A DNA stretch of 64,000 nucleotides from Paraconexibacter antarcticus (GCF_024220175.1 NZ_CP098502.1:2294001-2358000); one strand, 5' to 3'. Shown: positions 8,256-48,523, counted from the stretch's first letter. Notes: generated from the letters alone by a model not told the origin. Translations and numbers: made by a program.

Positions 8256-9802
8256 TCAGGCGACGGCTGACGGCTCGCGCAGATCTGCTTCATGCGGCGT
8301 CGACGCCCCTGGGGGCTCAGCGGCATCTTTCGGTGGCGCCCAGAGCGCGGCGAGGATGCCGGCGGCGAGCATGATGAAGACCATGACCAGCGAGGTGTGC
8401 TGCGTGGCGTGCACGTAGGAGTCCCGCGCTTTGTCGGCCAGGGCCTGCCCGCTGGGGCCCAGGCGGCTTGCGACCTGGAGCGCGCCGGCGGCCGATCCGC
8501 GGCTGGCGTCGCGGGCGGGGGCGGGGAGCTTGTCGGTGATGGCGAGCATGTCGGAGGTGTATTTGCCGGACAGCAGTCCGCCGAAGAGCGCGACGCCGAG
8601 CGAGGTGCCGAGTTCGCGGGTGGTGTGGTTGACGGAGGCGGCGACGCCTTGTTTGGCCTCGGAGACGTTGCTGATGATCGCCTGGGTGCAGGGGACCATC
8701 GCCATGCCGAGCCCGAGGCCGATCGGCAGCGTGGCGGCGAACAGGACCCAGACCGGTCCGGCGCTGCCGATCCCGAGGAGGATGAGGAACCCGAGGGCGT
8801 TGAAGATGCAGCCAGCGCAGACGATGACGCGTAGGCCGAAGCGGCGGGTCAGGCGTCCGGCGTAGATCGTGATCGGGATCAGCGTGAACGCGGTCGCCGA
8901 CATCGGTAGCGACGCGGCCAGCGCGGTGTCGCCGAGCACGACCTGCTGGTAGGGGATGATCAGGAACGCGAGGCCGTAGACGCTGGCAAAGCACATCATG
9001 ACGGTGAACGACGCGACCGCGAAGGAGCGGTTGGCGAACAGCCGCACGTCCAGCAGCGGGTAGCGGCGGCGCAGCTGAATCGCGGCGAAGGCGCCGCCGG
9101 CGAGCACGCCGAGGCTCAGCAGGCCGATGATCTTCGGGTCGCTCCAGCCGTCCAGGCCGGCCTGGATGAACGCGGCGACCAGGGCGCTGACGCAGATGAG
9201 TGCGGCCAGGGCGCCCCAGACGTCGATCGGTGGCTGGTCCTCGTCGCGCGAGGACGGCAGCGTCGGGGAGACGGCGAGCACGATCGCGGCGCCGGCGAGG
9301 ATGCTCCAGAAGGCCGAGCGCCAGGAGAAGAACTCAAGCAGGATCGCCGCCACGAGGCCGCCGAGCACGCCGGCGAGGGAGAACGCGGCGGTCCAGATGC
9401 TCACGCCGGCATCGCGCATGTCCATGGGCAGGGTGCTGGTGATCAGCGACAGGGTCGAGGGGAGGATCAGCGCGGCGCCGACGCCGAGCGCGGCGCGGGC
9501 GCCGATCAGGGCGTTGGGGGTGTCGACGAACTGCAGCGCGACGGCGGAGGCGGCGAAGATCCCGAGGCCGGCGATCATCACGCCGCGGCGGCCGAAGCGA
9601 TCGCCGAGGGCGCCGGCGGGGAGCAGGAGGCCGGCCATCGCGAGGGTGTAGACGTCGATGATCCAGGTCAGCTCGGTCTGACTTGCCCCGATCTCGCGGG
9701 CGATCTGTGGCCCGGCGATGTAGAGCGTGGTGATCGACGCGACGACAAGTCCGACCGACGCGCAGAGGATGCCGAGGACCCAGTAGGCGCGGGACGTGAC
9801 AT
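8256..9802 (-). CDS. MFS efflux transporter (DHA2-like) with an apparent 5' frameshift
   Basis: A major facilitator of the 14-helix DHA2 (EmrB/QacA) type. The motif-A loop LGDRFGRRG follows the second helix, and many hydrophobic segments extend to the C-terminus. The homologous reading frame continues upstream of 9638 through an obvious first helix (YWVLGILCASVGLVVAS, then WIIDVYTLAMAG), but it meets the MMPL stop TGA (9809-9807) without any ATG, GTG or TTG. The natural-looking starts (ATG at 9802 and at 9814, the latter overlapping that stop) are in another frame; adding one base near 9786-9790 would join them. So the gene is either mutated, mis-sequenced or initiated at a non-standard codon. 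Confidence 0.8.
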
Positions 9803-9806
9803 CTGC

Positions 9807-12053
9807 TCAGGCATGAACGGCGACCTCCGGCTGGTTGGGCTTCTGGGTGCCGGGCGCGACGGCGCCGGGTTGCCGGTGGGAGAGGCTGAACTTCGGCAGC
9901 AGTCGTCCGAGCCAGTGGGGCTGATGCCAGGCGCGGGGGCCGGCGATGCTGATCAGGGCGGGGAGGAGCAGCAGCCGGACCAGGAAGGCGTCGAGCAGGA
10001 CGGCGACGCCGAGCACGACGCCCATCTCCTTCGCGGGGACGGCGGGGGAGAAGGCGAAGGAGCCGAAGACGCCGAGCATCGCGGCGACGGCCGCGACGAT
10101 CACCGGTCCGGAGCGGCCCATGCCGTGAACGACGGCGGTGCGGGCGTCCCGGGTCTCATCCCAGCGCTCGCGGGCGGAGGAGATGAAGAACACGGTGTAG
10201 TCCATCGCGATCGCGAAGATCATCGCGCTGAAGAACACCGGCACCCAGAAGTCGATGAAGCCCTGGGACTGAAATCCCAGCAGACCGGTGAGGTGTCCGT
10301 CCTGGAAGACGTGGACGGTGATCCCGAGCGCGGCCGCCGTGGACAACACGCTGGTGAGCGTTCCGGCGAGCGCGATCAGCGGCGCCTGCACGGCGATCAG
10401 CAGCAGGATCGAGCCGAGCACGAGGATCATCCCCAGGACGAGCGGGGCCTTGTTGGTCATCGCCCGCTGCAGATCGTGCAGCTCGGCGGGGGCGTGGCCA
10501 ACCAGTGCGTCTGGCGGGAGTTCGGCGCGGAGCCGATCGATCTGGGTTCCGGCCGCCCGGCTGTCGGGTGCCACCCGGAGCGCGGCCTGCAGCAGAACGT
10601 GATCGGTGCCCGGCGTCGTCGGGAGCGGGCGCACGCCGACCAGGTCGCGGTCGGCGCGCATGACCGCCTCCGCGCGGGCGCCGTCCCCTGCGGGTGCGGC
10701 GACGGTGACCGGCGCGATGCCCGACACGCCGAACGCGTGGTTGACCAGTTGCGCGCCCTGGCGGGCCGGCGCGTCATCGGGCAGGATCGCGTCGCCGGGA
10801 ATGCCGATCCGCAGATGGCCGAGCGGGAGCGCCAGCACGACGAGCACAAGGATCGCCGCGGCGGCCAGCGGCCGCGGGTGGCGCCAGACGAACGCCCCCC
10901 ATCGGGTCATCAGCCCGTCACCGTCGGCGCGGGCGCCGCGCTGGTTCTGGCGGCGGCGCCAGGGCGTCGCGCCGGCGTCGATCCGCGGCCCGAGCCGGGC
11001 CATCAGCATCGGCATCAGCGTGAACATCACCGTCAAGACGAGGGTGACGGAGAGCATGATCGCGAGGCTGATCGCTCGAGGCATCGGGCTGGGGATCAGG
11101 AAGCACACCCCGATCGCCAGGAACACGGTCGTGCCCGAGAACGCGATCGCGCGACCGGCGGTATCCATCGTGACCGCCGCCGCCAGGGCGGGATCAGCGT
11201 GTTCTCGCAGGGCCTCGCGGAAGCGCATGACGATGAACAGCGCGTAGTCGATGCCGAGCGCCATCGTGAAGATCAGCGTGAACGTCAGCGCCCACAGGGA
11301 GATGTCGAACAGGTGGGTGAGGATTGTCAGGGTGCCGCCGGTCACGGCTAGGCCGATGACGGTGATCAGCAGCGGCAGGCCGCCGGCCATCAGCGACCCG
11401 AACGCCAGGGCGAGGACCAGCAGCGTGATCGGCAGCGCGTAGGTCTCCGAGTGCAGCGTGGCGTCGCGGTTGTCCTTGTTGAAGTCCGCCCACTGCGCCG
11501 AGAGCCCAGACAGGTAGGCCCGGTAGCGCGGGCCGGCGACCTTCGGCACCTGGCCGCGGAGGCGGTCGGCGGCGCGGATCATCTCCTTCGGGCTCGCGCC
11601 GGCGCCCGCGGTGACGATCACGGTGCGCCCGTCGGCCGATATGAGTCCGGCCTTCTGCGGCCCGACCGTGCCGCGGACGGCCTTATCGCCGCCGAGCAGG
11701 CGCGATTCGGCGCGAGCAGCGCGCCGGAAGGCCGGGTCCTCGGCATACGGCCGGGCGCCGTGCATGACCACGCTCAGCGCCGAGCTGGAGGCCAGCGGAT
11801 CGGCCGTCTGCACAACGTCGCGGGCTTTCACCGAGTCCGAGCCCGTCGCCCACATCCCCGACCCGGCCAGCGAATGCTCAAGCTGCGGCAGGAACGCGCC
11901 CAAACCGGCCACCACAACGAACCACACGACTGCGGTACGCCGTGCGTGGGTGGCCGACGCGTACGCCAGCCGGCCGAGCGGACCGAGCGCGGACGCCGCC
12001 GCGGCGGATGGATCTTTGGTGGCGGACGTCGGCATGTCCCAAGCAAACCACAT
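9807..12053 (-). CDS. MMPL/RND-type lipid exporter
   Basis: A 748-residue MMPL transporter made of two repeats. Each repeat has a helix, a large extracytoplasmic domain (about 60-200 and 420-510) and a bundle of five helices. The proton-relay Asp-Tyr pairs are visible as GIDYALF and AMDYTVF, as in MmpL3-type proteins. Two starts are possible: ATG at 12053 or ATG at 12035 (MPTSATK), neither with a clear ribosome site. The gene diverges from the thioesterase/TetR operon and is followed by an MFS pump, which suggests a TetR-controlled efflux or lipid-export module. Confidence 0.92.
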   Translation of the reverse strand: MWFAWDMPTSATKDPSAAAASALGPLGRLAYASATHARRTAVVWFVVVAGLGAFLPQLEHSLAGSGMWATGSDSVKARDVVQTADPLASSSALSVVMHGARPYAEDPAFRRAARAESRLLGGDKAVRGTVGPQKAGLISADGRTVIVTAGAGASPKEMIRAADRLRGQVPKVAGPRYRAYLSGLSAQWADFNKDNRDATLHSETYALPITLLVLALAFGSLMAGGLPLLITVIGLAVTGGTLTILTHLFDISLWALTFTLIFTMALGIDYALFIVMRFREALREHADPALAAAVTMDTAGRAIAFSGTTVFLAIGVCFLIPSPMPRAISLAIMLSVTLVLTVMFTLMPMLMARLGPRIDAGATPWRRRQNQRGARADGDGLMTRWGAFVWRHPRPLAAAAILVLVVLALPLGHLRIGIPGDAILPDDAPARQGAQLVNHAFGVSGIAPVTVAAPAGDGARAEAVMRADRDLVGVRPLPTTPGTDHVLLQAALRVAPDSRAAGTQIDRLRAELPPDALVGHAPAELHDLQRAMTNKAPLVLGMILVLGSILLLIAVQAPLIALAGTLTSVLSTAAALGITVHVFQDGHLTGLLGFQSQGFIDFWVPVFFSAMIFAIAMDYTVFFISSARERWDETRDARTAVVHGMGRSGPVIVAAVAAMLGVFGSFAFSPAVPAKEMGVVLGVAVLLDAFLVRLLLLPALISIAGPRAWHQPHWLGRLLPKFSLSHRQPGAVAPGTQKPNQPEVAVHA

Positions 12054-12065
12054 TTTGCACCGAAC

Positions 12066-12092
12066 GAGTAAGAAAACTACTCCGATCGGTAC
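12066..12092. promoter_or_regulatory. Divergent operator region: GAGTA/TACTC repeat overlapping CCGATCGG palindrome
   Basis: Between the MMPL gene (minus, start near 12053) and the thioesterase gene (plus, start 12130), GAGTA and TACTC form an inverted repeat (12066-12082). It overlaps the perfect 8-base palindrome CCGATCGG (12082-12089), which is followed by TAC. The string CCGATCGG close to a GTAC also occurs upstream of the GAF-like gene at 13964-13971. The arrangement fits a TetR operator for both transcription units; the TetR gene at 12591 is the obvious candidate regulator. Confidence 0.5.
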
Positions 12093-12129
12093 GTTATGCT
12101 GGTGGCGTGGATGCTGAACGGGAGAGCTT

Positions 12130-12594
12130 GTGGCGCGCCTGAGGATCGAGGAGCGCTATGACGACGCGATGGCCGAGAGCATGCTCGCCATCAGCAACGA
12201 GATGCCGGGGCTGCCCGAGTTCCTGGGTGTGCGGTTGCTGCGCTTCGCTGCGGGACGGCTCTGGTCTGAGGCGGACCTCACCGGCCAGGTGCCGACGCCG
12301 TCGGGGAACGTGCACGGAGGGGTCGTCGCCGCGATCCTGGACCACATCACCGGCGCGGTGGTCTACCCGTTGATCCCGGACGGGCATTGGGGGGCGACGA
12401 CTGAGCTGAAGCTCAACTACATCGCGCCCGTCGCGGCGGGATTGCTGCAGGCCGACGCGACGGTCCTGGCGATCACCAACCGCAGCGCGGTCGTGCGGGC
12501 GGAGGCCTACATGGACGGCAGGCTCGTCGCCGCCGCCCAGGGCACGATCGCGATCGTCGCCCCGCGCGCGGTGACCGACCGAGCGGCGGCATGA
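12130..12594 (+). CDS. PaaI-type hotdog thioesterase
   Basis: A 154-residue single hotdog-domain protein with the signature NVHGGVVAAILDH (about residues 59-71), typical of acyl-CoA thioesterases of the PaaI/YdiI kind, and the beta-strand region TTELKLNYIAPV. It starts at GTG 12130, behind GGGAGAG. It would release CoA from a small or aromatic acyl-CoA, or proofread a catabolic pathway. Its stop overlaps the ATG of the next gene (TetR), so it shares the regulator's operon. Confidence 0.88.
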   Translation: MARLRIEERYDDAMAESMLAISNEMPGLPEFLGVRLLRFAAGRLWSEADLTGQVPTPSGNVHGGVVAAILDHITGAVVYPLIPDGHWGATTELKLNYIAPVAAGLLQADATVLAITNRSAVVRAEAYMDGRLVAAAQGTIAIVAPRAVTDRAAA

Positions 12595-13202
12595 GCACGG
12601 GCAAGCACCTGACCGCCAAGGGCCAGCGAACGGCCGCCCGGGTCCTGGAAGCGGCGACCACCGTGCTGGCACGCGACGGGTTCGGCGGCGCGACGCTGGG
12701 CCGGATCGCGGAGGAAGCAGGCCTGGACAAGCGCAACGTCCTCTACTACTACGACACCCGCGAGGCGCTGCTGGTACGCGTGGTCCAGACCGTCGGCGAG
12801 CGCGTCGCCGGACACATCGAGGAGACCGTCGGCGAGATCGACACCCCCGAAGCGCTCGCCGACGCACTCGTCGAAGCGATGTGGTCGGGGATCACCTCCG
12901 CGCCCGAGCTCGCGCGCTCCTACTTCGCCCTGATCGGCGGCGGCGCCGGCACCCCCGAGGTTGAAGCGGCCCTGCGAGGGCTCAAAGACGCCTACGAGCG
13001 GCTCATCTCCCGGCAGCTGCAGTCGATCAGCCACACCCGGTGGCGGCTGCGCGACGACCTTCCGGGCATGGTCACGCTGACCCTCGCGGTGTTCCGCGGT
13101 CTGCTGCTGGAGTGGACGGAGACCGGCGACACCGCGGCTAGCGCGGCAAGCCTGCAGCGGCTGAAGCGCTCGATCGCCGCCGAATACGTCCAGCTCGGGT
13201 AG
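12591..13202 (+). CDS. TetR family regulator
   Basis: A 203-residue TetR regulator. The N-terminal helix-turn-helix (about residues 10-55, GFGGATLGRIAEEAGLDKRNVLYYYDTREALL) is followed by an all-helical ligand domain. It is translationally coupled to the thioesterase gene (ATGA). It closely resembles the TetR at 13979-14614 in the DNA-binding part, where TVLARDGFGGATLGRIA is shared exactly, so both may recognise the same CCGATCGG-containing sites. Confidence 0.93.
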   Translation: MSTGKHLTAKGQRTAARVLEAATTVLARDGFGGATLGRIAEEAGLDKRNVLYYYDTREALLVRVVQTVGERVAGHIEETVGEIDTPEALADALVEAMWSGITSAPELARSYFALIGGGAGTPEVEAALRGLKDAYERLISRQLQSISHTRWRLRDDLPGMVTLTLAVFRGLLLEWTETGDTAASAASLQRLKRSIAAEYVQLG

Positions 13203-39155: not shown

Positions 39156-40591
39156 TAGTGCTCCGTTAGGTTGTTGCAGGAGGTTATGGAGTCTTGGCGA
39201 ACTTCTTGTGCATGAGTTCGTCGGCGGGGCAGGTCAAGATCGGGTCGGTGGCCGGTCTCTCGGACAAGCAGCTGGCGCGGGTGCGGCCGCGGCTTGAGGC
39301 GTTCGCGGAGGACATGTTCGAGCCAATGGTGCGTCGCGATCAGCGGCGGTGGGGCGGCGTGTATCTGCGGGGGTTGATGCTCGATGGCAAGCGCAAGAGC
39401 ATCGAGCCGATGGCTGCCCGCCTGGAAGATGGCGATGAGCAGTGCTTGCAGCAGTTCGTCAACCAGTCGCCGTGGCGGTGGGAACCGGTGCGTAAGCGCT
39501 TGGCGGTCCGGCTCAGCGAGGCGATCGTGCCGGCGGCTTGGGTGATTGACGACACCGGCTTTCCGAAGTTCGGCGACAAGTCAGTCGGCGTGGCGCGCCA
39601 GTACTCCGGCGCTTTGGGGAAGGTCGGCAACTGCCAGATCGGGGTCTCGATCACCGCCGCCACCGTGCACGCGTCGTGCCCGATCGACTGGCGTCTGTTC
39701 CTGCCCGAGTCGTGGAACGAGGACCCGCGCCGCGCCGGCTGCAAAGTCCCCGACGACGTCGTGCATCGGCCGAAGTGGCAGCTCGCGTTGGACATGATCG
39801 ACGAGCTTCAGGCGTGGGGGCTGCAGGCTCCGCCGGTGCTCGGCGACGCCGCCTACGGTGACGTGACGGAGCTGCGCATCGGCCTGGAAGAGCGCGACAT
39901 CCGCTACGTGCTGGACGTCAAGGGCACCACGTCGGCGCTCCCGGCCAGCACCGAGCCGCAGACGCCGACCTACGCCGGCAAAGGACGGCCGCCCGCGCCG
40001 CGCTACCGCCGACCGTTCAGCAGCGTCGCGGCTTTGGCGGCCGAGGTCGGCGAGGACGCCTATCTGCGGATCTGCTGGCGCCAGGGCACCAAGGGCGAGC
40101 TGGCCTCGCGCTTCACCGCGATCCGCGTGAAGCTCTGCAACATCAAGCTGCGCAGCGCCCACGCAGACGGCAATCTGCCGGTCCGGTGGCTGCTGGCGGA
40201 GTGGCCCGAAGGCAAGAGCGCCCCGACCGACTTCTGGATCAGCGACCTCCCCGACGACACGCCGATCGCGGACCTCGTCGCGCTGGCGAAGCTGCGCTGG
40301 CGGATCGAGCAGGACTACCGCGAGCTCAAAGACGCCCTCGGCCTAGACCACTTCGAAGGCCGCTCCTGGCCCGGCTGGCACCACCACACAACCCTCGTCT
40401 CCGTCGCGCACGGCTTCCTGACCCTGGAACGACTGCGGCGACCTCAACGCCGGGCGGCCGCCTGACCTCACTGTTCGAGGTCGTTCGGGAGCTGCAAACG
40501 CTCTTGGCCTGCTGGCACGGGACATGCCCGACCTGCCGCAGACGGCTGCCGCCCGACACCCCCTACCTCAACGACACCTAACGGAGCACTA
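39156..40591 (+). mobile_element. IS701-family insertion sequence (1,436 bp)
   Basis: The terminal inverted repeats TAGTGCTCCGTTAGGT are identical at both ends for 16 bases. The element is flanked by TTAG on the left (39152-39155) and CTAG on the right (40592-40595); both fit the YTAR target, although not identical. The left flank is also the site of the IS5 insertion. Confidence 0.85.
39194..40465 (+). CDS. IS701-family transposase
   Basis: A 423-residue DDE transposase. The first catalytic Asp is in WVIDDTGFPKFGDKSVGVARQ, the second in VLGDAAYGDVTELR, and the Glu in LRWRIEQDYRELKDALGLDHFEGR. It starts at TTG 39194; an internal ATG at 39212 is an alternative. The stop after RPQRRAAA is followed in the next frame by SLFEVVRELQTLLACWHGTCPTC and a stop at 40581, which is the usual IS701 C-terminus. 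A one-base change has therefore cut about 38 residues, and activity may be reduced. Confidence 0.88.
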   Translation: MANFLCMSSSAGQVKIGSVAGLSDKQLARVRPRLEAFAEDMFEPMVRRDQRRWGGVYLRGLMLDGKRKSIEPMAARLEDGDEQCLQQFVNQSPWRWEPVRKRLAVRLSEAIVPAAWVIDDTGFPKFGDKSVGVARQYSGALGKVGNCQIGVSITAATVHASCPIDWRLFLPESWNEDPRRAGCKVPDDVVHRPKWQLALDMIDELQAWGLQAPPVLGDAAYGDVTELRIGLEERDIRYVLDVKGTTSALPASTEPQTPTYAGKGRPPAPRYRRPFSSVAALAAEVGEDAYLRICWRQGTKGELASRFTAIRVKLCNIKLRSAHADGNLPVRWLLAEWPEGKSAPTDFWISDLPDDTPIADLVALAKLRWRIEQDYRELKDALGLDHFEGRSWPGWHHHTTLVSVAHGFLTLERLRRPQRRAAA

Positions 40592-40661
40592 CTAGAACCC
40601 TGTGTTAATCGGCAAGAAGCCCTTGGTTAAGGGGTCGTTTCTGCGGTTCGCGACGGGTACG

Positions 40662-40674
40662 AGTGGTACTCGCA
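40662..40674. repeat. 13-base direct repeat AGTGGTACTCGCA (left copy)
   Basis: It lies 65 bases upstream of the integrase gene. The same 13 bases occur in the same orientation at 56688-56700, next to tRNA-Gly. It is a candidate attachment-site core for a 16-kb island, but repeats of this length are expected by chance in 64 kb, so position is the main support. Confidence 0.3.
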
Positions 40675-40690
40675 GATTTGTACGCTCGGA

Positions 40691-40713
40691 CTGAGGGTCG
40701 GGAGTCCGACCTC
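40691..40713 (+). other. tRNA-Gly 3'-end-like fragment before the integrase
   Basis: CTGAGGGTCGGGAGTCCGAC and the next three bases match the segment from the 3' anticodon stem through the T arm of the tRNA-Gly at 56782-56854, with two substitutions and one missing base. It is on the plus strand whereas the intact tRNA is on the minus strand, so the two do not form a simple attL/attR pair. Confidence 0.4.
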
Positions 40714-40738
40714 TTTTCAGCCCCTCGATCACGTCGCC

Positions 40739-42121
40739 ATGAAGCCCCGAGACCTTCCCGTGCCGGCCCTCTTCGTCGTCGAGACGAAGGACGGCTCGCC
40801 GGTCTGGGAGGCGAAGTGGCGCTCCAGCGGGGAGCAGGTCAAGCGCCGCCTCGGGCCGGCGTTGCTGCGGCGGCGCCCGGCCGACGATCGATCCGCCGGT
40901 GACGGCTGGCGGGCACGCTGGGAGGTCCCCGTCACGCGGAGCGGTCGACCGCAGCGCGGCAAGGACGGGACGCTCGGCGTCGACGAAGCCATCGCCCTCG
41001 CGGGCGAGCTCGTCGATCACGTCGAGGTGCAGCGTGCAGCTCAGCGCCGGGAGGCCGACCGCATCGCCGCCCTCGGCGGCCACGACCCGACGCTCGCCGA
41101 AGCCGCCGGGATCTGGCTCGACAACCGCGAGCGGGTCAAGGGGTTGCGCATCAGCACGCTGCGTGAGTACCGCTCGGTCGTGGACGTCCACCTCCTCACG
41201 TCGCCGCACCTGGCGGGCCCCATCGCCGGCATCACCACCGGGAAGGTCATCGACTGGCGCGACGAGCTCGACGCACGGCGCGACGAGGAGGGCGAGCGCA
41301 TCGTCTCCCGGCGGACGATCAACAAGGCCCGCATGGTCCTCCACCGCATCTTCGAGTTCGCCTGCCGTCCGATCGACCAGAAGGGCTATGGCCTGCTCCT
41401 GAACCCGGTCAAGCACTGCGAGCCGCTCGGGGAGGAGCCCGCGCCCGAACGCGAGCCGCTCACGCCCGGCGAGGTCATGCTCGTCGTCGGCGCCCTGCGA
41501 GCCGGCAGTCACCGCGCCGCGCGCGCCCGCGGGGGCGCGACCTCCCGCAAGCCCGAGGCGCAGGTCGAGCGCGACCGCGAGAGCGAGCAGGACGCCGCCA
41601 TGGTGATGCTGCTCGCGTTCTGCGGGCTGCGCGTGGGGGAGGCCGCGGCCCTCAGCTGGCGGCACATCGAGTTCGCCTCCTCCCGCCTGCGCATCGACCG
41701 CTCCTGGAATTCCACGAACCTCGTCGAGACCCCGACCAAGGCCGGCGAGGCCCGCTGGACCGTCGTCCCCGACCAGGTCGCCGCCGTCCTCGACGGTCTC
41801 TCGCGCCGCCCGTACTTCACCGGCCGCGACGACCTCGTCTTCTGCTCGGCGGTCGGCAAGCACGTCGACCTCCGCGCCTTCCGCCGCCGCTTCCGCGCCG
41901 CGTGCGAAGCCGCGGGGATCGACCGCCACATGCGCGTCCACGACCTCCGCCCCGGCGCGACCACCGACCTACGGAGCGTCTTCGACGCAGACGCCGTCCG
42001 CAAGCTCGTCGGACACAAGGACGCGCGGACCGCGCAGCGGTACGCGCACGCGCGCGATCAGTCGGACGCGGCGGCACGGTGGACGAAGTACCTCGACGAC
42101 ATGATCGGAGCGGGGGAGTGA
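40739..42121 (+). CDS. Tyrosine recombinase (integrase)
   Basis: A 460-residue phage-type integrase. The N-terminal region includes an AP2-like arm domain (WRSSGEQVKRRLGPA). It is followed by a SAM-like core-binding domain (about 120-230) and the catalytic domain: Arg in FCGLRVGEAAALSW, HxxR in MRVHDLRP, His in LVGHKD and Tyr in AQRYAHA. After HDLR the usual HT is PG, and the next helix looks shortened, so activity is likely but not certain. It lies just right of the IS701 element and is the first gene of the accessory region to 56.5 kb. Confidence 0.9.
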   Translation: MKPRDLPVPALFVVETKDGSPVWEAKWRSSGEQVKRRLGPALLRRRPADDRSAGDGWRARWEVPVTRSGRPQRGKDGTLGVDEAIALAGELVDHVEVQRAAQRREADRIAALGGHDPTLAEAAGIWLDNRERVKGLRISTLREYRSVVDVHLLTSPHLAGPIAGITTGKVIDWRDELDARRDEEGERIVSRRTINKARMVLHRIFEFACRPIDQKGYGLLLNPVKHCEPLGEEPAPEREPLTPGEVMLVVGALRAGSHRAARARGGATSRKPEAQVERDRESEQDAAMVMLLAFCGLRVGEAAALSWRHIEFASSRLRIDRSWNSTNLVETPTKAGEARWTVVPDQVAAVLDGLSRRPYFTGRDDLVFCSAVGKHVDLRAFRRRFRAACEAAGIDRHMRVHDLRPGATTDLRSVFDADAVRKLVGHKDARTAQRYAHARDQSDAAARWTKYLDDMIGAGE

Positions 42122-43258: not shown

Positions 43259-43603
43259 GGGTGGTCCATTCGGTTTGGTGCTGCGGGGATGTCCCGACGC
43301 GCACCGGAGGTGACGATCTGCTTGTTGGGGCTTCGGCACCGCCGGTCCCATCCTTGAGCGTGCGGCCGAGCGGGCGCCGGCACCGAGCGCGGTCCGGCGC
43401 CGCGCGCGCATCCCCTAAGGCGGGCATCTTGTCGGATTCGGATCCTCGCTCTGCAACTCCCGCTGCCGCATCTCGGTCGCCGTCCGCCTCCCGGCGCGGG
43501 GGACCGCACGGCGGCGTTCTGGACGTTCGTTTGATCTGGGAAGTTGGGGCTGACCGAGCCCAGCGGCCCGTGTTGTCTGGCTTAGAGGCTTGTCCTCGGA
43601 CCT
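43259..43603. other. Gene-free intergenic region upstream of riboswitch 1 and the GH16 gene
   Basis: 345 bases between the divergent GH16 gene and the first riboswitch. Open frames are GC-bias artefacts. The part belonging to the GH16 leader (minus strand, about 43300-43480) can fold extensively and might be a structured leader, but I could not assign it to a known riboswitch class. Confidence 0.4.
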
Positions 43604-43685
43604 ACCCGATCAAGGCAAACCCGTTGCGAGGCGGGGACGCAAAGCCAGGGGTCTTCCACGGACGGAAGGCCGCCCAGTTGCCCAG
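43604..43685 (+). promoter_or_regulatory. Class-I cyclic-di-GMP riboswitch (GEMM-I), copy 1
   Basis: Conserved blocks appear in order. GGCAAACC (43614-43621) is followed by a first stem capped by a GCGA (GNRA) tetraloop (CCGTT-GCGA-GGCGG, 43621-43634), then GGGGACGCAAAGCC (43633-43646), which holds the ligand-binding core. A second hairpin (GGTCTTCC/GGAAGGCC) and the closing GTTGCC complete it. AGGAGG and ATG 43695 of the secreted-protein gene follow immediately, so translation or transcription of that gene and the EAL gene behind it should respond to c-di-GMP. Confidence 0.9.
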
Positions 43686-43694
43686 GAGGCATCC

Positions 43695-44309
43695 ATGTAC
43701 CGCACGACGCTCACCACCATCGCCGCGACCCTCTCGGTCGCGCTCACGCCCGCCGCCGCGTTCGCGGCTGGGATCCCGGCCGGGTTCACCGCCGGCCCGC
43801 CCGCATTGGCCACGACCGCTGCGCCGTCGGGCACCCCGACCGCGACGAGCAACCCCGGTAGCGCGTACGTGCCGTCGGGCACGCCGACCGCCGACAACCA
43901 CCCGACCGGGACGAGCAACCCGGGTATGAGCCACAAGCCCGCCGGCACGCCGGGGCCGAACGCGTCGGCCTCGAGCAAGGCGAAGGCCTACGGCACCTAC
44001 TGCAAGGGTGAGAGCAAGCAGCCGGTCGACGGGCAGACCGGCACGCCGTTCAGCAAGTGCGTCACCGCCATGGCCAAGCTCGCCTCGGGCGTGACGAGCA
44101 ACCCCACCAGCGCCTGCAAGTCGCTGAGCAAGAAGCACGTCGCCGGTCAGCACGGGACCGCGTTCAGCCAGTGCGTGAAGGCCGCCGCGAAGCTCGCCAA
44201 GGATCAGGCCGTCACGACCCCGGACCCGAGCACCGACCCGGCGCCCGCGACCGACCCGACGACGGACCCGGCCCCGACGGACCCGACGACGGCCACGAGC
44301 CGCCGCTGA
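43695..44309 (+). CDS. Secreted Thr/Pro-rich protein with two Cys-pair repeats, c-di-GMP-riboswitch controlled
   Basis: A 204-residue exported protein with a signal peptide (MYRTTLTTIAATLSVALTPAAAFA). A Gly/Thr/Pro-rich segment follows with repeated SGTPTA- and TSNPG-like units (about 40-90), then two similar modules of about 35 residues each, with paired cysteines (TYCKGESKQPVDGQTGTPFS-KC and SACKSLSKKHVAGQHGTAFS-QC). A TDPTTDP-rich tail ends the chain. It has a perfect AGGAGG site. The modules could be disulphide-stabilised binding units of a surface or matrix protein. No known family recognised. Confidence 0.85.
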   Translation: MYRTTLTTIAATLSVALTPAAAFAAGIPAGFTAGPPALATTAAPSGTPTATSNPGSAYVPSGTPTADNHPTGTSNPGMSHKPAGTPGPNASASSKAKAYGTYCKGESKQPVDGQTGTPFSKCVTAMAKLASGVTSNPTSACKSLSKKHVAGQHGTAFSQCVKAAAKLAKDQAVTTPDPSTDPAPATDPTTDPAPTDPTTATSRR

Positions 44310-44380
44310 GCAACGGCCTGTCGGCGGCGACCCCCGAAGGGTCGCCGCCGATCGCCGTGCGGTTCAACTCCACCTACGCG

Positions 44381-45706
44381 ATGACGTCCAGCACCGACAT
44401 CACCGAGGGCCTCACGATCGCCTATCAGCCGATGGTCGATCTGCAGACCGGGCGACCGTGGGCGTACGAGGCGCTCCTGCGCCCAGAGTCGGCCTCGCCG
44501 TCCGCGTGGCTTGCGAAGGCCCGCCGCGAGGGCGCCGGCCCGGTGGCCGAGGCGCTGGCGATCACGCTGGCCCTCCGCGGCGGTCGGCCACCCGGCGGCG
44601 CGCTGCTGGCGGTCAACGTCAGCGCCTCAGCGTTGGCCTCCGACGCGGTGCAGCGGATGCTGCCTCGTGATCTGTCGGGGCTCATCCTGGAGATCACCGA
44701 GAACGAGCTCGTGCTGCACGGCTCCTCGATCCAGACCCACTTGGACGACCTCCGTGGCCGAGGAGCCTTGATCGCGGTCGACGACGCCGGCGCGGGGTAC
44801 GCGAGCCTCAGGCAGGTGATGCTGCTGCGCCCCGACATCATCAAGCTCGACCGCGAGCTCGTGTCCGGCGTGCACCTTGACCCGGCGAAGGTTGCGCTCA
44901 TCGAGGCCCTCAGCCGCTTCGCTGTGCGCACCGGCGCGATGCTCTGCGCCGAGGGCATCGAGCACGAGGACGAGCTCGCCACGCTCGCCGACCTCGACGT
45001 GCCGATCGGCCAGGGCTTCTACCTCGCCCGCCCCCACGCCCGGTGGCCGACCGTCGCGCCGATGGCCGCGCTGGCCTGCCGGGAGGGCCTGGCCTCGGCG
45101 CTGCGCCACGGCGACCGGCCGCTCGGCGACCACGTCCAGATCCTGCAGGAGGCGCTCGCCGCCCGGCTGAGCAACTGCACCTCCCTCGCAGACCTCAACG
45201 CTACCCTTCCCCAGCTGCAGCTGCTGCTGCAAGCCGACGGCCTGAGCATCTCCCGCCTCGAGGACCCGGGCGGGGACCCCTACCTGCAGACCTGCGCCGG
45301 GTCCGTCTGGGAGGACGAGCCCTGCTATCGCGTCGCCGACTACCCGACCACGGGCGCGTTGCTGCGGACCGGAGACGCCGCCCAGGTCCTGCGTGGGGAT
45401 ACCGGCGCCGACGAGCACGAGCTGCAACTGCTGCACACCAACGGCCTGGCCGCACTGATGATGATCCCGCTGCGCGCCTGCGGACAGGCCGTCGGGCTGC
45501 TTGAGGTCTTCAGCAGTGAGGACCGGCCCTGGACCCGCCAGCAGCTCACGCTCGCGCGCACGGTCGCGCACCATCTCGCCACGCTCCTGCGTCATCTCCC
45601 CGCTCACGCTCAGGCGCGAGCGGTCGGGCATTCCGGGCACCCCCGGCTGACCACCTTGCGGGCGCTTCCCGCCATCGCCGCAAACGACACGACCGGGAAG
45701 GCCTGA
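44381..45706 (+). CDS. EAL-domain c-di-GMP phosphodiesterase with C-terminal GAF-like domain
   Basis: A 441-residue protein. The EAL domain spans about residues 8-245: the signature YEALLRP (E30), VNVSAS (Asn), LEITENEL (Glu), VDDAGAGYASL (D134-D135), IIKLDREL (K155), CAEGIEHEDEL (Glu) and GQGFYLARP (Gln). All metal- and water-binding residues are present, so hydrolysis of c-di-GMP to pGpG is expected. Residues about 255-415 form a GAF-like sensor (LADLNATLPQLQLLLQADGLSI, LMMIPLRACGQAVGLLEVF). ATG 44381 or GTG 44357 could start it. It lies behind riboswitch 1, giving a ligand-degrading feedback loop. Confidence 0.92.
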   Translation: MTSSTDITEGLTIAYQPMVDLQTGRPWAYEALLRPESASPSAWLAKARREGAGPVAEALAITLALRGGRPPGGALLAVNVSASALASDAVQRMLPRDLSGLILEITENELVLHGSSIQTHLDDLRGRGALIAVDDAGAGYASLRQVMLLRPDIIKLDRELVSGVHLDPAKVALIEALSRFAVRTGAMLCAEGIEHEDELATLADLDVPIGQGFYLARPHARWPTVAPMAALACREGLASALRHGDRPLGDHVQILQEALAARLSNCTSLADLNATLPQLQLLLQADGLSISRLEDPGGDPYLQTCAGSVWEDEPCYRVADYPTTGALLRTGDAAQVLRGDTGADEHELQLLHTNGLAALMMIPLRACGQAVGLLEVFSSEDRPWTRQQLTLARTVAHHLATLLRHLPAHAQARAVGHSGHPRLTTLRALPAIAANDTTGKA

Positions 45707-45712
45707 CCCGCC

Positions 45713-45730
45713 GCCCGAGCCTGTTCGGGC
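45713..45730 (+). terminator. Hairpin GCCCGA/TTCGGGC after the EAL gene
   Basis: Arms of 6 to 7 bases (GCCCGA...TTCGGGC) around a 5-base loop, between the EAL stop and riboswitch 2. There is no T-tract, so it may be a weak terminator or processing point separating the two riboswitch units. Confidence 0.45.
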
Positions 45731-45739
45731 CCGTTGACA

Positions 45740-45816
45740 CCGACCAAAGGCAAACCCGTCGCGAGGCGGGGACGCAAAGCCAGGGACCTCACCACGGTGA
45801 GGCGGCCCAGCCGCTC
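45740..45816 (+). promoter_or_regulatory. Class-I cyclic-di-GMP riboswitch (GEMM-I), copy 2
   Basis: Same architecture as copy 1: GGCAAACC (45749-45756), a GCGA-capped stem (CCGTC-GCGA-GGCGG) and GGGGACGCAAAGCC (45768-45781), then a perfect hairpin CCTCACC-AC-GGTGAGG and a closing GGCCCAGCC. The core between the hairpins is identical to copy 1. The ATG of the first pilin-like gene (45817) follows directly, with no separate ribosome site, so ligand binding could mask or expose the start itself. Confidence 0.9.
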
Positions 45817-46449
45817 ATGACCCTCCACCCCCCTCCAGCCCCCCACCCTCCATCCACCCGCCGTCGTGATGAGGCCGGCTTCACGCTCGTCGAGCTCCTC
45901 GTCACGATGCTCGTCGGCGTGGTGATCCTCTTCGCCGTGCTGTCGCTGCTGGACGGCTCGGCCGTGCACGAACTCGCCGTGGCCGGAAGGGTTGCCGGGA
46001 CCGACGACGCTGACCAGACGATCGCCCGGATCGGCGACGACGTGCGCCAGAGCTTCGCTGTCGCCCCGTGGACCAGCAGCCCGACGACGCCGAGCGACAC
46101 GCTCGATCTGCAGGTGCTGACCCGCCAGTCGGACGGGGCGATCGCGCTTCACACGATCCGGTGGGACTGCGCCGCGCCCGCCGGTGCCGCGACGTGGGCA
46201 TGCGTACGACGTGACCTCACTGCCGGGACTGCCGACCAGCCGGCCCCGGGGCAGTTCACCGTCTCCGGGGTCAGCGCGTTCACCGTGCTCGCCCCCGTCA
46301 GCGGGGCCGGCGGGCTGCCGAGCGTCCGGGTGCGGCTGTCGGCGCCGATCGCCTCGCGGCCGGCCACCGTCGACTTCGACACGACGTTCGTGCCGCGCAA
46401 CTGCCAGACCATCCCGCTGACCGTCGGGAGTGACTGCCCATGGCCATGA
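45817..46449 (+). CDS. Type IV pilin-like protein 1 (PilW/PulJ-like)
   Basis: A 210-residue prepilin. After a Pro-rich basic leader (TLHPPPAPHPPSTRRRDEAG) the processing site G/FTLVELLV follows, with the canonical Glu at +5 and a roughly 20-residue hydrophobic helix. The rest is a beta-rich globular domain with cysteines (WDCAAPAGAATWAC; NCQTIPLTVGSDC). Prepilin peptidase would cut after Gly and the protein would join a pilus-like or secretion pseudopilus filament. First gene of a three-pilin operon directly controlled by riboswitch 2. Confidence 0.85.
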   Translation: MTLHPPPAPHPPSTRRRDEAGFTLVELLVTMLVGVVILFAVLSLLDGSAVHELAVAGRVAGTDDADQTIARIGDDVRQSFAVAPWTSSPTTPSDTLDLQVLTRQSDGAIALHTIRWDCAAPAGAATWACVRRDLTAGTADQPAPGQFTVSGVSAFTVLAPVSGAGGLPSVRVRLSAPIASRPATVDFDTTFVPRNCQTIPLTVGSDCPWP

Positions 46450-47798
46450 GACGCGTCCGGGGTGAGGCGGGGTTCGGGCTGATCGAGGTGCTCGTCTCGA
46501 TGCTCGTCCTCGGCCTCGGGATCCTCCCGGCCTACGAGGTGTTCACCCGCGGGCACCAGACCGCCGCGACCTCGCAGAACATCCAGATCGCCTCCGACGT
46601 GGGCACTGCGGCGATCGAGCAGCTCCGCGCCCGGCCGTGGTCGACGCTCAGCACCGCCGCCGTCCGCCACACCGCCCCGCCCGCCGATGCGGTGGATCCC
46701 GGCCGCGTGAGCAACGGCTCCTACACGTTCACCGACAGCACCGGCACCCAGGTCACCGAGCCGCTGGTGCCGTACTCCACGGACCCGACGGCACCGGCGG
46801 ATTACGAGCGCTTCGTGGTGCAGACCGACAAGGGTCCTCGGACGTTCGATGTGTGGCGCATTGTCAGTTACCGCCAGGAGAGCTGCCCGGTCCTTGACCT
46901 CAGCCGGCTCGCGGACACCATCACCAGCGTCCAGGCCGCGATCGCCGCGCTCACCGCCTCCAGCGGAACCCAGAACTTCCTCTACCAGCTCGTCGGGAGC
47001 ACCGGCACCGGCGGCCTCTTGGCGAAGATCGTGACCGACACCACCGGTGCGCAGGCCAAGCTCACCTCGACGGTGCTGGCCCTGCTCGGATCAACGCTCG
47101 GCGCCAAGACGCAGGCCGCGCTCAGCACGAGCCTGGATGCGATCCAGGGCGGGACGGCGCCACTGCAGACCGCGGTCGCCGGGCTGCGCAGCGCGCTCAC
47201 CAGCCTCTCAAGCGGCCTTGACCCGCTACGGCAGAAACTCACCGCGGGAACCACCACAGCGGGACTCACCGGCACGCGCGTTGATCTGTGCCAGCTCCCG
47301 GACAGCACCACCCTCCCGGACCTGCGCGACCTCGCCGCCATCAGCCAGGCGCTCCCGACCCTCACCACCCAGCTCGCCACCCTGACCTCGACCTCGACGA
47401 CGCTGGATCAGAAGGTCACCGACCTCTCGAGCTCGCTCGATAACGTGGTGCTCGGCGTGGCCGACAGCCTGCTGAGCACGATCTCCTCCCAGGACGACGC
47501 GGTCACCGCCGCGGCCGGCTCGGTCACGCTCAGCGGCAGCCTCGGCGTCAGCGCCGCCGACGGGCGCACCGTCACCGCGACCGTGAGCACCCAGACGAGC
47601 GTCGACCTCGGCACGCTCGCCAGCACCCAGACCGACCGCGCGAGCGCGCTGCTCGCCGTGCTGAACACCGGCAGCGCCCACAACACCGTGCGCGTCAGCA
47701 TCGCCGTCCGGCCCGTCTCAAGCAGCCCCGACATCGGGCCCCGCAACTACATCTGGCTGACCACCGTCATCACCAACCCCGACGCCCACCTGTTATGA
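46440..47798 (+). CDS. Type IV pilin-like protein 2 (PilV-like N-terminus, long repeat-rich body)
   Basis: A 452-residue prepilin with the site EAG/FGLIEVLVSMLVLGLGILP, then an unusually long body. About 150-250 is Ala/Thr/Leu/Ser-rich with heptad-like helices (LAKIVTDTTGAQAKLTSTVLALLG), and the later part is beta-like. The ATG lies 10 bases inside the previous gene's end. Ordinary PilV-type pilins are about 150-200 residues, so the extra 250 residues suggest a tip or adhesive function. Known members of this kind prime assembly; the role here is inferred. Confidence 0.8.
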   Translation: MAMRRVRGEAGFGLIEVLVSMLVLGLGILPAYEVFTRGHQTAATSQNIQIASDVGTAAIEQLRARPWSTLSTAAVRHTAPPADAVDPGRVSNGSYTFTDSTGTQVTEPLVPYSTDPTAPADYERFVVQTDKGPRTFDVWRIVSYRQESCPVLDLSRLADTITSVQAAIAALTASSGTQNFLYQLVGSTGTGGLLAKIVTDTTGAQAKLTSTVLALLGSTLGAKTQAALSTSLDAIQGGTAPLQTAVAGLRSALTSLSSGLDPLRQKLTAGTTTAGLTGTRVDLCQLPDSTTLPDLRDLAAISQALPTLTTQLATLTSTSTTLDQKVTDLSSSLDNVVLGVADSLLSTISSQDDAVTAAAGSVTLSGSLGVSAADGRTVTATVSTQTSVDLGTLASTQTDRASALLAVLNTGSAHNTVRVSIAVRPVSSSPDIGPRNYIWLTTVITNPDAHLL

Positions 47799-48523
47799 CC
47801 CGCAGGCCCACGTCCTCGAGCACTGATGCGGGGTTCACGATGGTCGCGACGATGATCGTCCTGTCGATCGTGCTGCTGCTCGCCGGGACCGCGATCGCCG
47901 TCGCCGTCTCCGGCCTGCAGCGAGCGACCCCCGCCCGCGACAGCGAGAAGGCCCAGGCCGCCGCCGATGCCGGCGCCGACATCGCCGGCTACCGCATGAG
48001 CAAGACCCTGATCGCCCCCGAGAGCGACGGCCTGCTCGGCCTCGCCACCGGCACGCTGCGCACCCTCGGCTGCGTCGGCGTGCAGATGAACGACGCCAGC
48101 ACCACCAGCATCCCCGCCCAGCCCGCCACCACCGCGACCGTCAGCACCCCGCTGGCCACCCTCAGCACCACCACCGCCGGGGTCCAGGTCGCGCCGATCT
48201 CCGCGGGCAACAACTTCTGCCAGATGACCACTGAGCAGCCCCTCTCCGACGGCGAGTCCTACCGCTACGCGATCTCCACCACGATCACCCTCCCCAGCAC
48301 CGTCGCCGCCTCCACGAGCATCCCGGCCGGGCAGCTGATCGTCCGGCAGGTCTCCGCGATCGGCCACGCCGGCCACACCTACCGGCGCGTGATCGTCTCC
48401 TACTGGCTGAACCTCAGCACCCCTACCCACCCGTTTGTGCGCCGCCACTACACCCGCTGCCCGCCGCTGCCCGCCGGCGCGACGGACCCCTTTGCCAGCT
48501 GCCCCACCAACCCGGGATACTGA
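47795..48523 (+). CDS. Type IV pilin-like protein 3 (PilX-like)
   Basis: A 242-residue protein with a prepilin-like N-terminus (TDAG/FTMVATMIVLSIVLLLAG, lacking the Glu at +5, as in PilX/GspK-like minor pilins), a helix with AQAAADAGADIAGYRM, and a Thr/Ser-rich C-terminal domain with cysteines (TLGCVG, NFCQMT, YTRCPPL, ASCPTN). ATGA overlap with gene 2. Absence of Glu5 is typical of tip-located minor pilins. The three genes look like a minor-pilin cluster whose assembly machinery (PilB/PilC/PilD-type) is not in this window. Confidence 0.8.
   Translation: MTRRPTSSSTDAGFTMVATMIVLSIVLLLAGTAIAVAVSGLQRATPARDSEKAQAAADAGADIAGYRMSKTLIAPESDGLLGLATGTLRTLGCVGVQMNDASTTSIPAQPATTATVSTPLATLSTTTAGVQVAPISAGNNFCQMTTEQPLSDGESYRYAISTTITLPSTVAASTSIPAGQLIVRQVSAIGHAGHTYRRVIVSYWLNLSTPTHPFVRRHYTRCPPLPAGATDPFASCPTNPGY

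Follow-up and report, generated by a model that had tools for sequence, protein, structure and literature searches.

Two riboswitch aptamers of the class I cyclic di-GMP type (c-di-GMP-I, or GEMM-I) lie in the 64,000-nucleotide stretch of the Paraconexibacter antarcticus genome analysed here (the window; GCF_024220175.1, NZ_CP098502.1:2294001-2358000). One stands directly before a gene for a secreted protein and the other directly before a set of minor-pilin genes. We consider it probable that both are functional class I switches, the first acting on the secreted-protein gene and the second on the pilins. An earlier note on this DNA had proposed two such switches, and this part of its interpretation is supported, as each aptamer precedes a surface or secretion gene and carries the ligand nucleotides typical of its class. 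The locus is one more member of a c-di-GMP surface regulon of the Solirubrobacterales. All positions below are those of the window, and the aptamers, genes and hairpins of the locus lie on the + strand.

Aptamers were sought with Rfam covariance models at their gathering thresholds (35 bits for RF01051, 59 bits for RF03167), a check that the earlier note had suggested, and both sites score above the cut-off. Aptamer 1 (43604-43685) matches RF01051 with 58.7 bits (E 6.5e-9). Aptamer 2 (45740-45819) scores 52.9 bits with RF01051 in a whole-genome search, while its best model is RF03167 (c-di-GMP-I-GGC) with 61.3 bits. The cores of the two are identical, as had been claimed: the window has two copies of GACGCAAAGCC, at 43636 and 45771, where shuffled sequence has a mean of 0.02. 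Both P2 stems are indeed capped by GCGA, in agreement with the GNRA loop expected by RF01051. In the alignments, the positions equivalent to G20, A47 and C92 of the Vc2 aptamer of Vibrio cholerae, which we take to be the ligand contacts in Vc2 numbering, are G, A and C in both aptamers, and the predicted ligand of both is c-di-GMP. That aptamer 2 arose recently from aptamer 1 by local copying is unsupported, the two being 79% identical compared with 81% to an aptamer of another genus.

The gene following aptamer 1 (43695-44309) encodes, as described, a secreted protein with a signal peptide and two Cys repeats. Searches of Pfam and NCBIfam gave no match for it; its family is present in 46 of the 232 genomes of the order that were searched for this gene and for the second pilin gene. 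Its Shine-Dalgarno sequence, AGGAGG (43684-43689), abuts the aptamer. GEMM-I aptamers also occur directly before relatives of the gene in three other genera (loci L162, L164 and L169) and, at L163, one gene further upstream; at L162 and L164, the two inspected for this feature, the Shine-Dalgarno abuts the aptamer in the same layout as in the window. Aptamer 1 and the secreted-protein gene thus form a recurrent unit, whose neighbourhood with an EAL-domain gene was found only at this locus. We propose that aptamer 1 would control translation of the secreted repeat protein through this adjoining Shine-Dalgarno.

Downstream of aptamer 2 are the three genes that had been called prepilin-like. Two of them, pil1 (45817-46449, PilW-like) and pil2 (46440-47798, PilV-like), encode minor prepilins that pass the Pfam N_methyl cut-off of 21.2 bits, at 27.0 and 25.3 bits respectively, whereas pil3 (47795-48523) reaches only 15.0 bits and is retained as a PilX-like candidate; it has a syntenic orthologue in another genome of the survey (G014). 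The PilV model TIGR02523 gives pil2 45.3 bits, under its cut-off of 52.2. G014 holds the one clear orthologous set of the trio, 47-54% identical. The pil2 search of the 232 genomes yielded one clear orthologue, and a scan of the named genomes for pil1 found nothing. The pairing of aptamer 2 with this trio was found only at this locus. Here aptamer 2 would control a second minor-pilin set, with the first start codon placed in the 3' strand of P1. The suggestion that pilus-like structures are switched by the same signal stands as far as the position of the aptamer directly before the pilins and its class-typical ligand nucleotides are concerned, but the sign of the control is unproven.

RF01051 has ten matches in the genome, among them three pairs with the same spacing of 2135 bases, so that the locus is present three times; the copies were compared over retrieved stretches. 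Copy B (L012, G000:C1:4853001-4873000) shows about five base differences from the window between 42352 and approximately 51.9 kb, after which the two diverge sharply. This duplicated block of approximately 9.6 kb (42352 to approximately 51900) runs from a GH16 gene through sigma factor and cupredoxin genes. Part of its flanks consists of diverged paralogues, which suggests gene conversion or recent duplication; an assembly error may also be the source of the near-identity, as such closely matching 9-kb repeats are prone to misassembly. Nothing convincing in the way of direct repeats was found in the edge regions searched. An IS701-family transposase followed by a tyrosine integrase (39194-42121) adjoins the block.

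Copy C (L011, G000:C1:3405001-3425000, 9366-13195) is identical to the window from 43582 to approximately 45400 and then roughly 3-14% divergent. It has lost the pilins, position 45889 being joined directly to 48440, and among the 80 bases of its aptamer 2 there are 9 changes; the GCGA loop has become GCAG, which removes the GNRA loop. Decay of aptamer 2 together with loss of the pilins is as expected if aptamer 2 serves the pilins. In this copy, 22 bases separate aptamer 1 from the end of an upstream IS701-family element. Aptamer 1 itself is identical in all three copies; the identical tract in copy C may reflect recent gene conversion, and this identity is therefore uninformative on selection. 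Of the other four matches in the genome, two form a pair that precedes two major pilins, close to a prepilin peptidase-like gene. A third precedes a protein resembling ice-binding-like proteins, a type that follows GEMM-I in relatives, and the fourth a secreted protein.

As to the direction of control, binding of c-di-GMP would most likely close P1 and cover the Shine-Dalgarno at aptamer 1 or the AUG at aptamer 2. Both would then be translational OFF switches, as is Vc2, which works through P1 (PMC9262584). At aptamer 1, GGAGG (43685-43689) is predicted to form a duplex with CCUACC (43601-43606) at the 5' edge of the aptamer, a possible anti-Shine-Dalgarno strand of an extended P1, and this pairing would give a Vc2-like OFF switch. 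At about two dozen loci the aptamer ends no more than a few bases from the Shine-Dalgarno, and most of these have C/U-rich sequence just 5' of the aptamer as a potential pairing partner; the pilin class also gives support for P1 pairing (p 0.014). The likeness to Vc2 covers the aptamer family, the ligand nucleotides, the GNRA-capped P2 and, probably, translational control via P1; what differs is the placing of the Shine-Dalgarno or AUG, here right at the edge of the aptamer, and the targets. Translational mode, OFF direction and operon limits are all predictions from sequence, and the OFF direction taken alone is held tentatively, as a proposal that could readily turn out either way.

Several observations weigh against two working switches of this kind. 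The P1 helix is plausible but short, and that of aptamer 2 is weak, with approximately three pairs. Locus-specific covariation that would link the upstream strand to the Shine-Dalgarno, sought as a sign of an extended P1, was not found at the short-leader loci (p 0.81), where the constant Shine-Dalgarno leaves little to covary. The minimum free energy fold of the aptamer 1 leader contains another hairpin, UGCC-CAGGA-GGCA, which also takes up part of the Shine-Dalgarno and would point to an ON switch. A consensus scan revealed neither a sigma-70-like promoter nor a U-tailed terminator. Finally, the decay in copy C is a single case.

The hairpin in the aptamer 1 leader also speaks for the principal alternative, that both are ON switches raising the secreted protein and the pilins at high c-di-GMP. 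In such a mechanism the ligand-free RNA would pair the ligand-contact strand with the surroundings of the Shine-Dalgarno, and binding would free the Shine-Dalgarno. Matching UUGCC/GGCAA complementarity is present in several short-leader loci, and pili and adhesion are usually promoted by c-di-GMP. The pilM riboswitch of Geobacter metallireducens, also a GEMM-I family RNA that acts on type IV pilus genes, is an ON switch; it differs from this locus in that it senses cyclic GMP-AMP (c-GAMP) and acts by transcription termination (PMC9262584). However, the complement to the sequence following the Shine-Dalgarno is missing from most short-leader loci, and the C/U-rich anti-Shine-Dalgarno strands sit on the P1 side. 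We regard ON control as a serious possibility, while leaning against it.

A further question concerns the gene that follows the secreted-protein gene. It encodes an EAL-GAF protein (44357-45706), with the EAL domain (PF00563, E 1.8e-38) ahead of a GAF domain (PF01590) that had gone unmentioned. Its EAL catalytic residues are complete, as had been stated: EALLR, N, EITE, DD, K, EGIE and QGF align with the solved EAL phosphodiesterases BlrP1 and 2r6o, and the protein probably breaks down c-di-GMP. Its putative start is GTG 44357, the first possible one after the secreted-protein gene, with no clear Shine-Dalgarno. The earlier note took this gene to give feedback on the ligand that controls it; aptamer 1 would then govern a secreted-protein/EAL operon, and the phosphodiesterase would be regulated by its own substrate. 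The two genes do lie on the same strand with a gap of 47 bases, the catalytic residues are in place, and both genes remain intact in copy C despite the loss of its pilins. Elsewhere in the order, one further genome (G052) carries a GGDEF-EAL gene approximately 200 bases after GEMM-I; at this locus (L105) a 31-amino-acid open frame, itself preceded by a good Shine-Dalgarno, lies between the aptamer and the enzyme gene, making it the survey's clearest candidate for control of a c-di-GMP enzyme.

Against such feedback, the gap contains a 14-bp stem-loop (44320-44352, -37.5 kcal/mol; none of 400 random windows was as low). Of 20 secreted-family genes, the window's included, 12 have a stem of at least 9 bp within 60 bases of the stop codon, compared with 7% of random 60-mers. 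The stem-loop lacks a U tail and is probably a terminator or attenuator; since it stands where relatives of the secreted-protein gene often have one, the aptamer 1 transcript may end before the EAL gene. A 6-bp hairpin 3' of the EAL gene (45713-45730), by comparison, is unexceptional for GC-rich sequence (rank 0.39). No GEMM-I was found beside EAL homologues with identities of up to 50%, in searches that covered approximately 1.5 kb of flank for most of them, and at L162, L164 and L169 the secreted-protein gene and GEMM-I are present with no EAL gene found nearby. The intact pair in copy C, moreover, falls largely in the tract identical to the other copies and may reflect recent gene conversion. 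The feedback claim is thus doubtful and not established. If true, an OFF switch would give positive feedback, possibly bistable, and an ON switch negative feedback.

It is also conceivable that aptamer 2 is a relic, an RNA that folds but does not control pil1, with transcription starting within or below the aptamer and pil1 being leaderless. The pil1 ATG overlaps aptamer 2, is the sole ATG, GTG or TTG start in frame and has no usable Shine-Dalgarno. A start codon inside the aptamer is a layout not seen at the other surveyed loci, and the pilin orthologues in G014 lack a GEMM-I altogether. Nevertheless, the score of aptamer 2 with RF01051, its intact ligand nucleotides and its GNRA loop all argue against decay, and among the genomic copies the aptamer has decayed only where the pilins are gone. 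We judge the relic to be unlikely.

More improbable again is a self-locking module, in which c-di-GMP would shut off its own phosphodiesterase via aptamer 1 and block minor-pilin translation via aptamer 2, with the start codon trapped in P1. Were it real, a riboswitch would here mediate positive feedback, and the genome would carry the module in two almost identical copies.

That aptamer 2 is a true c-di-GMP-I-GGC variant with a different ligand is very improbable, although RF03167 is its top Rfam model, 2.3 bits over the cut-off. The consensus lines of RF01051 and RF03167 diverge in the binding core at GACGC[G/A]AAG, and we assume from these lines that the name GGC refers to the G that RF03167 has in place of the A equivalent to A47. 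At this site aptamer 2 retains the canonical A. CGCA is read at this position in 90 of the 92 hits of the order survey, and the other two, caught one step early by the pattern, also read CGCAAA. The L163 aptamer carries A and yet receives the RF03167 label as well. The label was accordingly rejected as a sign of a ligand variant, and we treat aptamer 2 as a presumptive ordinary class I aptamer.

Returning to two functional class I switches, the arrangement has relatives elsewhere. Tandem c-di-GMP-I riboswitches, of which 347 doublets have been reported (PMC9481103), also have two class I aptamers per locus; here, in contrast, the two are spaced by 2135 bases and each stands before a gene of its own, with no shared leader. 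The linkage had been called unusual in an actinobacterium, a claim that fails because GEMM-I is widespread in the order and phylum and often stands before pilins. GEMM-I was detected in 36 of 61 genomes (the window genome and 60 relatives, those named being Solirubrobacterales) and in 90 of 198 genomes drawn evenly from the phylum; these counts are lower bounds, stricter filters having been applied where more than 40 genomes were searched. The first downstream genes, 72 with the window genome's own excluded and with starts set by a simple script that placed some wrongly, include 27 N_methyl pilins, four CAP proteins, three ice-binding proteins, one GGDEF+EAL protein and one flagellin. Beta-helix and glycosidase proteins also follow GEMM-I in the order, many of the non-pilin genes encode secreted proteins, and at L071 (G033) the aptamer lies upstream of a flagellin-like gene.

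Major-pilin loci of the Solirubrobacterales, such as that of Patulibacter minatonensis DSM 18081 (L183), share with aptamer 2 the aptamer class, the order and a position before prepilin genes. Their leaders are 60-100 bases long and combine a stronger P1 (GGUG/CACC) with a probable outer GCCAG/CUGGC helix, features that are all missing from aptamer 2, which precedes only minor pilins. In the major-pilin leaders (29 loci, e.g. L013 8150-8370), the aptamer is flanked by GCCAG on its upstream side and by CUGGC on its downstream side. An exact GCCAG is present at 22 of the 29 loci versus 1 of 58 others, and exact CTGGC at 21 of 29 versus 9 of 58, which suggests an additional helix outside P1.

No paper on a c-di-GMP regulon of the Solirubrobacterales was found in the literature searched. 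Riboswitches for c-di-GMP rarely control c-di-GMP enzymes (PMC6366702), and for this reason the EAL question is worth an RNA experiment. Direct tests could be made in P. minatonensis DSM 18081, a cultured strain in which two major pilins are preceded by a pair of aptamers. The locus is ordinary in kind, yet it opens onto an order-wide regulon with two distinct leader architectures, which takes in major pilins, a second minor-pilin set and many secreted proteins.

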